Of a stretch of 64,000 nt of DNA, positions 57,739 to 63,812 are shown piece by piece. A program made the position numbers and the translations under genes. The stretch's first letter is position 1; each line of letters begins with the position of its first letter. The notes beneath the pieces were generated by a model, which did not search any database, was not told the origin of the DNA, and saw only the letters and a list, made by a program, of their open reading frames with translations. The stretch comes from Thermoflexus sp. (GTDB lineage: Bacteria; Chloroflexota; Anaerolineae; Thermoflexales; Thermoflexaceae), in assembly GCA_025057635.1 (NCBI GenBank), contig JANXBD010000004.1, positions 1 to 64,000 of the forward strand. Direction: 5' to 3'.

Positions 57739-59976
57739 TCATGCACTCGCGCCCCTATTCACGGACGGATCCTTCCCCGGCACCCGGTCAGGATATAATC
57801 CGGCATACACCCGATCTGGGGTTAGGGGAAACGCATGGAACCATATCCCAGTGGCCTCATGGACAGCAGCGAGCAGCGCAGGAGCTAAAGGTAGAAAGGG
57901 CATCTCCGCCATCCCCCGCACCCCCCACGGGCCCAGGGGGTCCGGGTGCTCGAGGATCAGGCTTTCCACCTCATTGGGAATATCATAGATTCCGGGGATC
58001 AAATAGGTGCTGAGATGGCGGGTGAGGATACGGCCCTGCTGCACGATGAAATTCTCAGTGATAGCATAACCCACCGCTTGCACCACTCCGCCCTCGATCT
58101 GCCCTATCAGACCGATTGGATGGATGGCCCGACCCACATCGTCGGCGCAGATCACCTTTACTGGCCGCACCTGCCCGGTCTCTACATCGACCTCCACGAG
58201 AACGGCCTCGGCCACGTATCCGTAGGTCACATTCGGGCGTTCGGAGAAACCCGTTTCTGGATCGAAGGGGAAGGTGCGCACGGGCCGGTAAGTGAACTCG
58301 CCGACGGCTGGGCGCTCTTCGTTGCGCCAGGCGGCCAGGGCCCGTTCCGCCGCGCCCCGAATCGCGTGGCCGGCCATGAAGGCCATCCGGGAAGCTGAGG
58401 AGCTCCCAGAGCTCTCGGTAAATGCAGTGTCCGAGGCCCGCAGCTCGATCCTCTCCGGCGGCACCCCTAGCGCCTCAGCGGCCATCTGGACGATCACCGT
58501 GTGCGCTCCTTGCCCCACCTCTGCGCCTGCATGAAAGACGATCGCCTTCTCGATATGGGCGTCCCCGTGGATCTCGATGCGAGCCCAGCAATGCTCCGGG
58601 AAGCCAAAGCTGTAGCCGACGTTCTTGAACCCACAGGCGAATCCCCAGCCATAGCGCTTCGCAGGATCCGGGGAGGAGGGCGCTTCCGGTCGAACCCATC
58701 CCCTTTCCGTCGGACGCCAGCCAGCTGCTCGGGCGCATGCTTTGATGACTTCCTCGATGCTCACCCCCTCCGGCACCATCCCCCCTGTGGGCATGCGAGA
58801 GCCCTCCCGCCAGACGTTCTTCAGTCGGATCTCCACTGGGTCCATCCCCAGAGCCTCCGCGAGCTTGTTCATCTGGGTCTCGGCGACGAAGAGGGCCTGA
58901 GGTGCCCCGAAGCCTCGCATGGCTCCGGTCGGCGGATTGTTGGTCAGCACTCCCCGGATATCCGCCCGGACATTTGGGACCTCATAAGGGCCACAGAGGG
59001 ACATCGTGATGTTGCTCAGCACCTGGCTGGAAGTGTACGCGTAAGCGCCCACGTCCGCGATCACGTCCGCCTCCACCGCCAGCAGCCGCCCCTCTCGGTC
59101 TGCCGCCCAGCGCGCCCGGGCCACCACCGGATGGCGCTTGTGATGGCCGATGATGGATTCCTCCCGGCTCCAGACGATCTTCACCGGTCGACCGAGCTTC
59201 CAAGCGGCCAGCCCCAAAAGGATCTGCACCGACATATCCTCTCGGCCGCCGAAAGCTCCACCGATCGCCGCATAGATCACCCGGATCCGATCCTCGGGAA
59301 GTCCCAACGCATGGGCAATCTGACGACGATCCTCGTGGATCCACTGCCCCGCGGTTACCACCGTGATCCGGCCTTCCTCATCGATGTAAGCGACCCCCGC
59401 CTCGGGCTGGAGGTAGGCGTGCTCCTGGAACGGCGTCCGATAGGTTCCCTCGACGATCACCGCCGCCTCCCGGAAGGCGGCCTCCACATTGCCCTGGCGG
59501 ATCCGGTAATGGCAGAGCAGGTTCCCCGGATAATCAGGGTGAACCTGCGGCGCACCGGGACGCAGCGCTTCCTCGGGGTCGTAAACCCCCGGCAGGTCCT
59601 CATACTCCACCTCAATCAGCCCCACGGCCTTCGCCGCGATCTTTTCACTCTCCGCTGCCACCAGGGCGACGACGTCCCCTTCGTAGCGCACTACGTCCGC
59701 ACCGGGCTTGCTCCCCGGCCCGCAGATCACCGGCTGATCGAAGTAGACTAGCCCATATTCATTGACAGGCACATCTTTCGCCGTGAACACCGCCACCACG
59801 CCCGGCAACGCCTCTGCCCGGCTCGTGTCGATGCGACGGATCCGGGCAGGGGCTCGCCCAGCCCATTTGACCTTCAGGTAAAGCTCCCCCGGCAAATCCA
59901 GATCCCCTGGATAGGGGGTTCGACCGGTAACCTTCCCTTCTGCATCGATCCGCGGGATGGAGATCCCAACGGCCAC
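57739..59976 (-). CDS. molybdenum hydroxylase, large Mo-cofactor subunit (xanthine dehydrogenase family)
   Basis: 745 residues from GTG 59976 (GGAGG upstream); a longer frame is available but lacks similarity. An a/b-hammerhead domain (about 15-125) is followed by the molybdopterin-binding domains: GGAFGGRED (about 233-241), [10 protein letters not shown] (about 352-361), EVGQGAHT near 500 and the catalytic Glu near GMAEMPF at about 700. The substrate (purine, aldehyde, nicotinate or other heterocycle) cannot be read from sequence alone. The partner gene for FAD and FeS functions lies upstream. No XdhC-type maturation gene is present. Confidence 0.92.
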
Positions 59977-60251
59977 TCGCTCACTCCTCCACTTAGGAAG
60001 CTGATCCGGTTGCCTTGCGCGGCGCGCGAACGAACGAGATGATACATCGCTTAAGGAAACCGGAATTGTGCTCGTAGCGCCTTCTATTGGTTTTCGGGCG
60101 AGGGGAAACGACCTTCCGAATCGGCTTTGGTTTCTCAACCCCCCAATTTGTAGCCAGGCATGGTGAAACACGCAAGCGCCCGTTAGACATCCTCAAAAGA
60201 GAGAACGGGAGCTCATGCGACCGACCGCGAAAAAGATCCCCCGCCGGGATT

Positions 60252-61706
60252 TCATCCCAGCGAACCGCCGGCGGCTTCCTGCACCGCCCGGATGATGCTG
60301 TAATAACCGGTGCACCGACAGAGGTTGCCGGCGAAGGCCTGACGGATCTCCTCGAGAGTGGGCCGGGGCACTTCTTCTAACAGCACCACTCCGGACATGA
60401 TAAACCCGGGCGTGCAATACCCACACTGGACAGCGCCCTGATGGATGAACGCGGCTTGGAGGGGATGAAGGGCGTCCCCAGGGGCCACGCCTTCCACGGT
60501 CACAATCTCCGCCCCATGCGCCCGGGGCGCCGGGACCAGACAGGATAACACTGCCATGTCGTCCATGATCACAGTGCACGCTCCACACTCTCCCTCGGCG
60601 CATCCCTCCTTCGTGCCCACCAGCCGAAGATCTTCTCGCAGCATGCGCAGGAGGGTTTTATCGTTCGCCCCATGCACCACATAGCGGCGTCCGTTCACGG
60701 TCGTGAGGATCGGCGCGGGGCCTTCCTCCCGATGACGAATCCGGCCATCCCAGGTAGCCAGCTCGGCCGGAACCTGAGGCCAGGACCGAGGTCGCCCATC
60801 GGAGGGCTTCCAGAGCAGCACCGGACGCTCCGGAAAGCCCGCACGCTCCATTCCATCCCGCAGCTGACGCAACGCGCGCATCGTGAGCACCCGGACCATC
60901 TCGGCGCGATACCAAGCCGGCCCGCGGATGTCGTCGATCGGACGAGCGGCAGCCTGGGCCAGCTCCCCAGCCTGAGCAATGACGTCCTCGGTCAGACGCT
61001 GCCCTTGCAGAACCGCTTCCGCTTCCGGAGCCCGAACGATGGTCGGTGCCACCGCTCCCAAGGCGATCCGGGCCCGAGTGACCCGGTCGCCTTCTAGGGC
61101 GACCACCGCCGCCACGCTGACCACGGAGATTGCCTGGAACCGACGCAGCCCCAGCTTCAGGAAGATGCCCCGCTCGTTCGACCTCAGGGGTTCGAACGCA
61201 ATATCCACTAGCATCTCATCCGGAGCCATGGCGGTCTGCCGAACCCCTTGATAGAACTCCTCCAGGGAGAGGGTGCGCTGGCCTCGGACGCTCCGGAGCG
61301 TCACCGTGGCGTCCATAGCCCGTAAGGGGACAATCGTATCGTTCGCCGGGGAGGCCGTGATCAGATTGCCCGCCACCGTGCCTCGGTTACGGATCTGAGG
61401 AGAGCCGACCTCCCAGCATGCTCGAGCCAAGGGGAAAGCTCGCTCCCGGCAGAGCGAGGAGGCCACCACCTGGTTGTGGGTGACCAGAGGCCCTAGATGC
61501 AGGCGTCCGTCCGCTCCAATCGCAATGGCATCTAGACCGGGGATCCGAGTGATATCGATCAGGACCTCCACGCCAGGGCGTTGGCCTCGTTCGAGCTCCA
61601 GGAGGAGATCAGTGCCGCCAGCGATAATCCGCGCTCGGCTACCGTATTCGGCCAGCAAGCTTAGGGCTTCCTCTAGAGACGTTGGCGTATAATATGCTTT
61701 CCACAT
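60252..61706 (-). CDS. molybdenum hydroxylase FAD/[2Fe-2S] fusion subunit
   Basis: 484 residues from ATG 61706 (GAGGGGAGATCG upstream). Residues 1-285 are the FAD domain ([15 protein letters not shown] near 27-41, [17 protein letters not shown] near 106-122). After a linker, 335-484 are the iron-sulphur domain: plant-type ferredoxin cysteines in [12 protein letters not shown] (about 370-381) and the second cluster in CGYCTPG and CRCTGY. One gene therefore supplies electron transfer for the Mo subunit. The FAD-then-FeS order is the reverse of eukaryotic xanthine dehydrogenase. Confidence 0.92.
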
Positions 61707-61997
61707 CGATCTCCCCTCTAGCGAATAGATGGGCATATCGATCCCACAACAACTGCTCTTCTACCCCCTAAGTTTAACGGGATTTAGAGCGTTACTCCAG
61801 AAAGCTCAGTGAGCCCCTTCATCCCTTAATCGTCCGTTGTCTATCGGATTCGCCTCATCTTCGTGGGCTGACTCCACCAACCGTTCTTAATCCTCTTCCT
61901 CCCGCTCATGGGCTGCTTTGCGCCGGATTGATAACCGGTTATTATTTAAAAAACAGGAGATCCGAAACTATGAGCCAGATCCCACGTGGAACATTCG

Positions 61998-62612
61998 ATG
62001 GGGAAGCAGCCGATCCTAATTGGTCTAACCGGGAACATCGCTTGCGGCAAAAGCACAGTGGCCCGCATGCTGGCGGAAAAAGGGGCCTATGTCATCGACG
62101 CCGACGCGATCGCCCATGAAGTGATCCGGAAAGGCACGCCTGCCTACGAGGCCATCCTCCGCCGTTTCGGAGAAGGGATCCTCGGACTAGATGAGGAGAT
62201 CGATCGTCGACGTCTTGGAGCGATTGTTTTCCGGGATCCGAACGCCCTGCGGGATTTAGAAGCGATCGTTCACCCAGCTGTGCTGATGGAGATTCGACAA
62301 CGGATCCACGCCCATCCCGAGGCTCCCGCAATCGTTGTCGAGGCCATCAAGCTTATCGAATCCGGATTCGCCGAGGCCTGCGATACCATATGGGTAGTCA
62401 CATGTCCCGAGCCTGAGCAGATCCGTCGGCTGATGGTCGAGCGGGGGTTACCTGAAGAAGAGGCCCGCGTTCGAATCCAGATCCAATCCTCTCAGGCCGA
62501 GAAGATCCGACATGCCGATGTCATCATTGACAACAGTGGAGATTTGGAAGCCACGCGTCGTCAGGTGGAGCAGGCTTGGCGAGCGCAGGTGGAGCGAGAT
62601 GGGGCCAGTTGA
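61998..62612 (+). CDS. coaE: dephospho-CoA kinase
   Basis: Last step of coenzyme A synthesis. 204 residues from ATG 61998 (GTG 61986 is an in-frame alternative). P-loop GLTGNIACGKST (about 9-20), DADAIAHEV (about 34-42), HPAVLMEI and VVEAIKLIESG are characteristic. It starts a plus-strand group of four small genes at the right end of the window. Confidence 0.94.
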   Translation: MGKQPILIGLTGNIACGKSTVARMLAEKGAYVIDADAIAHEVIRKGTPAYEAILRRFGEGILGLDEEIDRRRLGAIVFRDPNALRDLEAIVHPAVLMEIRQRIHAHPEAPAIVVEAIKLIESGFAEACDTIWVVTCPEPEQIRRLMVERGLPEEEARVRIQIQSSQAEKIRHADVIIDNSGDLEATRRQVEQAWRAQVERDGAS

Positions 62613-62715
62613 GCAGTCTGTCAAGGTCTGCCGAGACACGCTGCGACGTTTGCGACGTAATCAGAACACTGTGCTCGAGGCCATCGATGGTATAGGATCC
62701 ATCGCCAAATTCTAG
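62599..62715 (+). CDS. possible 38-residue protein between coaE and the GNAT gene
   Basis: ATG 62599 follows GGTGGAGCGAG and overlaps the coaE stop by 14 nt; the frame ends 15 nt before the GNAT gene, filling the gap. The peptide is basic and amphipathic (VCRDTLRRLRRNQNTVLEAI), likely helical. It may be a real coupled small protein or a chance frame. No family recognised. Confidence 0.4.
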   Translation: MGPVEQSVKVCRDTLRRLRRNQNTVLEAIDGIGSIAKF

Positions 62716-62730
62716 ATCGAGGAGGACAGG

Positions 62731-63225
62731 ATGAAGCTTACCATCCGCCGAGCACGGCCTGCTGATGTTGATGCAATCCGGGATCTGGTTCGACGGGCCA
62801 CTCGAGGCCGCATAAACCCCTCCACTGATGAAGTCTTTGATCGCATGGCTGAGCGCGGGATGTTGCTGGCCTTTAGCCCGGAACGCGAGCTGGTGGGCCT
62901 GATCAGTTGGCGGGTGGAGAACCTGGTTGCCCGGATCTTAGATTTTCTGGTCCATCCCCACAACCTTCGACCGGTGGTGGGCCGGCAACTGATCGAGGCA
63001 GTTGAAGAGGAGGCGCGCCGTTTAGAGTGTGAAGCTTGCTTTATCTATGCTTCTCCCGAGATGTCCTCAGAAGCTCTTGCCTTTTACATTGGGTTGGGGT
63101 ATATCCGGTGGCCGGAGGAAAGTCTTTCCGAGCCATGGCGCGAGGCTGCTCATGAATTCGACGCCCTCGGGCGTGTGGCATTGATCAAGCAAATTCGCGC
63201 CGAGCGAGTCACGCAACCGATTTAG
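62731..63225 (+). CDS. GNAT-family N-acetyltransferase
   Basis: 164 residues. N-terminal TIRRARPADVDAIRDLV is a typical GNAT start; the acetyl-CoA site is atypical (NLRPVVGRQLIEAVEEEAR, about 76-94, replacing RxxGxG/A), and the last strand ALAFYIGLGY (about 114-123) is well kept. AGGAGGACAGG precedes ATG 62731. The acceptor is unknown. Confidence 0.85.
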   Translation: MKLTIRRARPADVDAIRDLVRRATRGRINPSTDEVFDRMAERGMLLAFSPERELVGLISWRVENLVARILDFLVHPHNLRPVVGRQLIEAVEEEARRLECEACFIYASPEMSSEALAFYIGLGYIRWPEESLSEPWREAAHEFDALGRVALIKQIRAERVTQPI

Positions 63226-63254
63226 TGGCATTCTTCCTTAGGAGGGAACACGAG

Positions 63255-63494
63255 ATGTGGACAGCGATCAAGGGATTCACCGAGCGACATCCACGTCTGA
63301 CCGCGTGGATCGCCCTCGCGATTGGGATGGTGGCTATCCTGTTATGGTCGGCCCGAGATGTCGGCTTAACTCCCTCTCAGCTCCTGGCCCTTGTGATCGC
63401 GACCATCGTGCTGGCCGGGCTGTGCGTATGGATCATCAGTTGGGAAGACGATGAAGAAGAAACCGGCTCTCAGAGTTCATCATCGAAACCATAG
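63255..63494 (+). CDS. small two-helix membrane protein
   Basis: 79 residues from ATG 63255 (GGAGGGAACACGAG upstream). Two hydrophobic helices (about 15-31 and 41-62) and an acidic Ser-rich tail (EDDEEE, SSSS). Unknown function. It starts 30 nt after the GNAT stop and is probably the last gene of this operon. Confidence 0.72.
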   Translation: MWTAIKGFTERHPRLTAWIALAIGMVAILLWSARDVGLTPSQLLALVIATIVLAGLCVWIISWEDDEEETGSQSSSSKP

Positions 63495-63579: not shown

Positions 63580-63775
63580 AAAACAAAATGCCCCGCCGTG
63601 CCGTGGGCCGCTGGGCTGATGCACCCGCTCGCTTAGGTGGGGGTCTCCTGCTGGTTGCCGCCTTGACGTGCCCCGCGCGCAGGCCGTCTAACGCGTCCCC
63701 ACGCTAGAGTCCGACCCCCCTTTGAAAAGGTGTTGGCGCAAGCCGCTGAACACGACCTCACGCACACAGCCGGGC
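63580..63775 (-). ncRNA. structured small RNA, about 190 nt, unassigned (6S-like size and layout)
   Basis: On the minus strand the 5' end (GCCCGGCTGTG..CGTG from 63775) pairs with the 3' end (CACG..CACGGCGGGGC, ending 63590) in a long, slightly interrupted closing stem, followed by ATTTTGTTTTC, a terminator-like tail. Inside are a hairpin GTGTT..GGC/GCC..AACAC, a long-range stem GGGGGTC/GACCCCC enclosing further hairpins (CTAGCGT..ACGCGTTAG) and a CACC/GGTG hairpin. The promoter places the transcription start exactly at the first base of the closing stem. No tmRNA tag frame, RNase P core or SRP tetraloop motif was recognised; 6S RNA is the best but unproven candidate. Confidence 0.6.
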
Positions 63776-63782
63776 TAACCTT

Positions 63783-63812
63783 ATTTTAACCAGAGCCCCC
63801 CCCGAGAGGCAA
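63783..63812 (-). promoter_or_regulatory. promoter of the small RNA
   Basis: Minus strand TTGCCT (63812-63807), 18-nt spacer with a G-run, TAAAAT (63788-63783). The predicted start at about 63,776-63,775 coincides with the 5' end of the RNA closing stem. Confidence 0.6.

Follow-up and report, generated by a model that had tools for sequence, protein, structure and literature searches.

A diverged 6S RNA gene in Thermoflexus and its relatives in the class Anaerolineae

The architecture described for 6S RNA (PMC8876501) matches that of an RNA gene that we found in Thermoflexus sp., and the mechanism that we consider for this RNA, occupation of RNA polymerase followed by pRNA-templated release, is taken from the same source. 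In E. coli 6S RNA, the 3′ strands of the central bubble and of the P2 helix pair to give the release hairpin (PMC8876501). The pRNA is initiated with a G both on the 6S-1 RNA of B. subtilis (PMC8876501) and on the 6S RNA of Aquificaceae (PMC4227106), as we predict for Thermoflexus. The Ms1 RNA of Actinobacteria is about 300 nt long, carries extra terminal hairpins and binds the core polymerase (PMC9130861). Our literature search on 6S RNA in Chloroflexi, Anaerolineae and Thermoflexus, whose scope did not take in the key 6S surveys, returned nothing specific, and the Thermoflexus genomics paper nowhere mentions small RNA, ncRNA or SsrS.

The 6S RNA gene and its surroundings

We analysed a stretch of 64,000 nucleotides of one Thermoflexus contig (the window). 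Near its end, a first-pass annotation made from the sequence had placed an unassigned structured RNA at 63580-63812, proposing either a divergent 6S RNA or a new class. An all-Rfam scan of the 64-kb window gave a single match, RF00013 (6S RNA, SsrS), at 63,586-63,778 of the minus strand with 48.1 bits (E 1.5e-6). The match is full-length (model positions 1-187 of 187), and its margin over the gathering cut-off of 46.4 bits is narrow. A permissive scan of the region (E<=1) yielded no family besides 6S. The signature motifs of 6S RNA, of which the first-pass annotation had seen none, are present (GUGUGCGUG, GCGCCAACACC, CCCACCU...GGGUGCA and CACGGCACGGCGGGG), and the RNA is 193 nt long, within the length of about 180-200 nt expected of 6S RNA, with both ends joined by a closing stem. 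No second 6S gene was found in the same assembly, which is about 77% complete. We are nearly certain that this locus is the single 6S RNA (ssrS) gene of the Thermoflexus assembly, which would act by the polymerase-mimic mechanism of 6S RNA, with the function assigned by homology. Thus, of the two options of the first-pass annotation, the divergent 6S RNA is borne out by the full-length match above the cut-off, the canonical architecture and the class-wide covariation described below, and the new class falls with that match and the class alignment.

The gene and its flanking elements are as follows.
63586..63778, minus strand: 6S RNA (SsrS) gene, 193 nt, in which RNA nucleotide n is window position 63,779 - n; identified by RF00013 and by homologues in the other Thermoflexus genomes (8/8).
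63807..63812, minus strand: -35-like element TTGCCT, with TTGC invariant in 9/9 genus sequences and flanks that do not align.
63783..63788, minus strand: -10-like element TAAAAT, at a spacing of 18 nt to the -35 element; all nine genus sequences have TANAAT here.
63580..63588, minus strand: T-rich 3′ tail TTTTGTTTT, following the closing stem and T-rich in 9/9 genus sequences.

Judged by these elements, which are kept in all nine genus sequences, the 6S gene is free-standing with a putative sigma-70-type promoter of its own, and the -10-like element places the expected RNA start at about 63,777-63,775. The interval of the first-pass annotation can be narrowed, with the RNA proper occupying about 63,586-63,778 and the remainder being promoter and T tail. 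Its claim of an own promoter holds (TTGCCT-18-TAAAAT at 63,812-63,783). The claimed terminator is retained as a T-rich tail and lost as a classical hairpin, since a strict terminator scan gave the tail no score as one.

The nearest plausible open reading frame ends at 63,494, and the next one, outside the window, has its start further along the contig at about 64,056; the 6S stretch is therefore intergenic and not crossed by any protein-coding gene. A protein-coding reading of the stretch itself was rejected, with stops in all six frames in the window and no frame open in all nine genus sequences. The 6S gene is preceded on the opposite strand (61,986-63,494, plus strand) by coaE, a GNAT acetyltransferase gene (both by Pfam) and an 89-aa ORF, which has a hydrophobic segment and matches no Pfam family. 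The 6S gene lies downstream of coaE and on the opposite strand, as in the window, in 4/5 Thermoflexus coaE loci; the fifth (L058) stops at a contig edge just past coaE. The order coaE-GNAT-small ORF of the window recurs in locus L039, where an extra ORF, about 120 aa long, intervenes, and locus L037 has coaE, GNAT and an extra ORF similar to that of L039. Farther away, two genes occupy 57,739-61,736 of the minus strand. The first encodes CO-dehydrogenase/molybdopterin-dehydrogenase FAD-binding domains fused to a 2Fe-2S domain (Pfam), and the second, an 810-aa ORF, looks like the matching molybdopterin-binding large subunit.

Conservation, structure and alternative readings

We found 6S copies by blastn in all eight other Thermoflexus genomes (84-89% identity). 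The nine genus sequences align without gaps over 193 nt, with a mean column identity of 94%. In a fixed register, their pairwise identity is 89-98% across most of the RNA and 71% in the 5′ bubble strand, and more than about 20 nt outside the RNA it falls to 28-46%, with TTGC, TANAAT and the T tail as the only exceptions. Seven of the eight other copies score 23.6-45.9 bits, under the RF00013 cut-off, and the eighth was missed by the filtered Rfam search and found by blastn; standard Rfam annotation therefore leaves the genus largely without a 6S RNA. Most families of the class likewise carry a 6S copy. In a search of 60 related genomes, the window's own included, 53 gave a match at E<=1 and 42 were above the Rfam cut-off. 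Class members reach up to 93 bits against RF00013 and share the core motifs and three helices in register with Thermoflexus. For the three class sequences in which the class model also matched the reverse strand, it gave 131-146 bits on the called strand vs 24-26 on the reverse. Two genomes (G040 with loci L044 and L045, G055 with L017 and L042) have two 6S genes each, like the 6S-1/6S-2 pair of B. subtilis, with one copy much nearer to the family model than the other. Two genomes of one family (G011 and G048 of f4, 97-98% complete) gave no match with RF00013 or the class model, pointing to either loss or strong divergence. The identity, structure and conservation of the RNA, as well as the sequence elements of its promoter and tail, are established.

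The following parts make up the RNA.
63759..63775, minus strand: closing stem P1, 5′ strand (RNA nt 4-20), paired with 63,590-63,605.
63590..63605, minus strand: closing stem P1, 3′ strand (RNA nt 174-189).
63735..63744, minus strand: P2 or downstream helix, 5′ strand GGCUUGCGCC (RNA nt 35-44), from which the pRNA is expected to be copied.
63614..63625, minus strand: P2 or downstream helix, 3′ strand GGUGCAUCAGCC (RNA nt 154-165), interrupted by a 2-nt bulge.
63720..63734, minus strand: central bubble, 5′ strand, starting AACACC (RNA nt 45-59), with AACAC conserved over the class.
63626..63638, minus strand: central bubble, 3′ strand ACCUAAGCGAGCG (RNA nt 141-153), able to pair with the first part of the P2 3′ strand in a short hairpin.
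63713..63719, minus strand: apical stem P3, 5′ strand GGGGGUC (RNA nt 60-66).
63639..63645, minus strand: apical stem P3, 3′ strand GACCCCC (RNA nt 134-140).
63646..63712, minus strand: apical domain with an internal-loop motif, GCGUUAG (63,694-63,688) ... GUCAAGGC (63,667-63,660), flanked by helices that covary.

Over the 43 class sequences, P1 is paired in 94.3% of cells with both-side changes in 13/16 pairs, and P3 in 92.7% of cells with both-side changes in 4/7 pairs. A large central bubble (nt 45-59 opposite nt 141-153) lies between the covarying P2 and P3. The consensus fold is rod-shaped, opened by a central bubble, and has no true branches. The end-to-end closing stem that the first-pass annotation had drawn (63,775-63,759 with 63,605-63,590) was thus right; its GGGGGTC/GACCCCC stem (63,719-63,713 with 63,645-63,639) is P3, and the branched fold built on that stem is abandoned.

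The P2 helix of Thermoflexus is GC-rich, with a 2-nt bulge on its 3′ side and an outer part shifted by two, and that of the rest of the class is a continuous GUUUUGAGCC/GGUUCAAAAC helix, GUUUUGAGCC being the 5′ strand. The GGUG of the P2 3′ strand has three possible partners, namely the CGCC of P2 and two CACC sequences, one in each strand of the bubble. The CACC on the 5′ side would give a collapse helix (nt 47-50 with 157-154), which is paired in 36/36 cells in the genus and 90/136 in the class; that on the 3′ side is the core of a hairpin, paired in 44/45 cells in the genus and 129/170 in the class. The whole hairpin, ACCUGC/GCAGGU, is paired in 87.6% of cells, strong in the rest of the class and shortened to about five pairs in Thermoflexus. 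In the relatives, RNAfold also predicts other pairings that compete for the P2 3′ strand. With the template blocked, its model for 8/9 genus sequences favours a hairpin made from the P2 3′ strand and the nucleotides that directly follow; a hairpin like that of E. coli was not obtained as the template-blocked fold in most genus sequences.

The divergence of P2 and the 3′ bubble strand in Thermoflexus could suggest a 6S-derived RNA with a changed function, such as core-polymerase binding like that of Ms1. We consider this very unlikely, for the bubble and template sequence GCC/AACACC is kept between Thermoflexus and the class, no non-6S Rfam family appears at E<=1, and Ms1 is an RNA of about 300 nt with extra hairpins (PMC9130861).

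The apical domain is the most conserved part of the RNA in the genus (nt 79-133, 98% pairwise identical). Its motif, GCGNUAG...GGCAAGGC, is an asymmetric internal loop between covarying helices. As a fuzzy pattern, it occurs in 9/9 genus sequences and in 26/34 other class sequences, which come from most of the sampled families (loci L003-L032); the pattern was built from these alignments, so that the class figures are descriptive and not a test. Of ten further rows of a phylum-wide search, one of them on the reverse strand, four have the motif, all from loci of the same class. The wider 6S search reached 43 genomes through loci, and one of the 27 6S hits outside the class matches the pattern, by a long-range match away from the apical position. 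Shuffled sequences match it in 2-7% of cases. There is a slim chance that this lineage-specific module (GNUA opposite AAG), conserved in the genus above the polymerase-facing helices, binds a protein or a lineage-specific sigma/polymerase surface. A highly conserved domain with a motif not convincingly seen in 6S hits outside the class, together with the low Rfam scores of the genus, might be read as a new class of structured RNA resembling 6S RNA only in its length and closing stem. Such a class is exceedingly improbable, given that the RF00013 match covers the whole model and that the core motifs and all three helices are in register with class members of up to 93 bits.

The fold energy of the 233 nt is -105 kcal/mol vs -98.8 +/- 4.75 kcal/mol for shuffled sequences (z -1.31), and 22/200 shuffles are as good. 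Since this is within the shuffle range, the single-sequence fold is no evidence for the structure, and conservation and covariation are. In P1, P2 and P3 together (33 pairs, 43 class sequences), 91.6% of cells are paired and 23/33 pairs changed on both sides, and sliding the partners by 1-3 columns as a control drops the pairing to 36.9-48.9%. None of 500 shuffles reached the covariation score of the class alignment. The agreement of the class with the 6S structure is partly selected, because the class sequences were collected by the 6S model. This selection bears less on the genus copies, which were found by blastn, and in the genus alone 96.6% of cells are paired and five pairs show changes on both sides. 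A structured RNA on the minus strand, the central claim of the first-pass annotation, is thereby confirmed, two of its proposed checks, Rfam covariance models and covariation in relatives, having returned 6S with no other family and conserved pairing with compensatory changes. Of the outcomes that it had named as refuting, neither a lack of such pairing at homologous loci nor a coding gene running across the RNA was observed. That GC-rich DNA between genes merely folds by chance or is coding, as the unexceptional fold energy and the short ORFs overlapping the 6S stretch might suggest, has a negligible probability in view of the genus-wide conservation with compensatory changes and of covariation far above the slid controls.

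Proposed mechanism and use of the findings

For the 6S RNA identified here, we infer expression, polymerase binding, pRNA start and release by homology with 6S. The sigma-70-type promoter would direct the synthesis of a rod of about 190 nt, with closing stem, P2, open central bubble and apical stem. By analogy with E. coli and B. subtilis, the bubble would imitate an open promoter, and the RNA, seated in the active site of the housekeeping polymerase holoenzyme, would damp transcription as nutrients run out. Upon the return of nutrients, the polymerase would transcribe a short pRNA from the 5′ strands of the bubble and of P2. If the analogy holds, this pRNA may start with the G opposite C47 (63,732) and read 5′-GUUGGCGCAAGCC..., and the predicted 5′ end for the C47 start is 5′-GUUGGCGC. 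The pRNA would then open P2, the freed 3′ strand would refold and the polymerase would be released.

The main value of these findings is the correction of an annotation gap, with a well-supported 6S copy in all eight other Thermoflexus genomes. A class-level model recovers the 6S copies of the genus and yields a concrete pRNA prediction for a thermophilic lineage of Chloroflexota, while the apical motif offers a small lead on the contact between 6S RNA and polymerase in other phyla.

Comparison with known systems

Ms1 resembles 6S RNA as a polymerase-associated small RNA with a central bubble, whereas the conserved block of Thermoflexus is 193 nt long and ends at the closing stem, short of the length and extra hairpins of Ms1. 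With B. subtilis 6S-1 and A. aeolicus 6S RNA, the Thermoflexus RNA shares a possible bubble-collapse pairing, CACC/GGUG, in 9/9 genus sequences, but the other class sequences form it incompletely (90/136 cells). As in E. coli 6S RNA, the bubble has an opposite 3′ strand able to form a hairpin with the P2 3′ strand, seen as ACCUGC/GCAGGU in the class. Unlike in E. coli, this hairpin has about five pairs in Thermoflexus, and, with the template strand blocked, the P2 3′ strand is usually predicted to pair with its own continuation downstream.

The likeness to RF00013 extends to the length, closing stem, P2, central bubble, apical stem, core motifs and full-length model match. The differences are the GC-rich P2 with its 2-nt bulge and shifted outer register, the longer and nearly invariant apical domain, and the low family score of the genus. 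The Thermoflexus 6S RNA is thus an ordinary family member at the diverged end of RF00013, belonging to a known kind of RNA that is present across the class of its host, and what the analysis adds is limited to details of the lineage.
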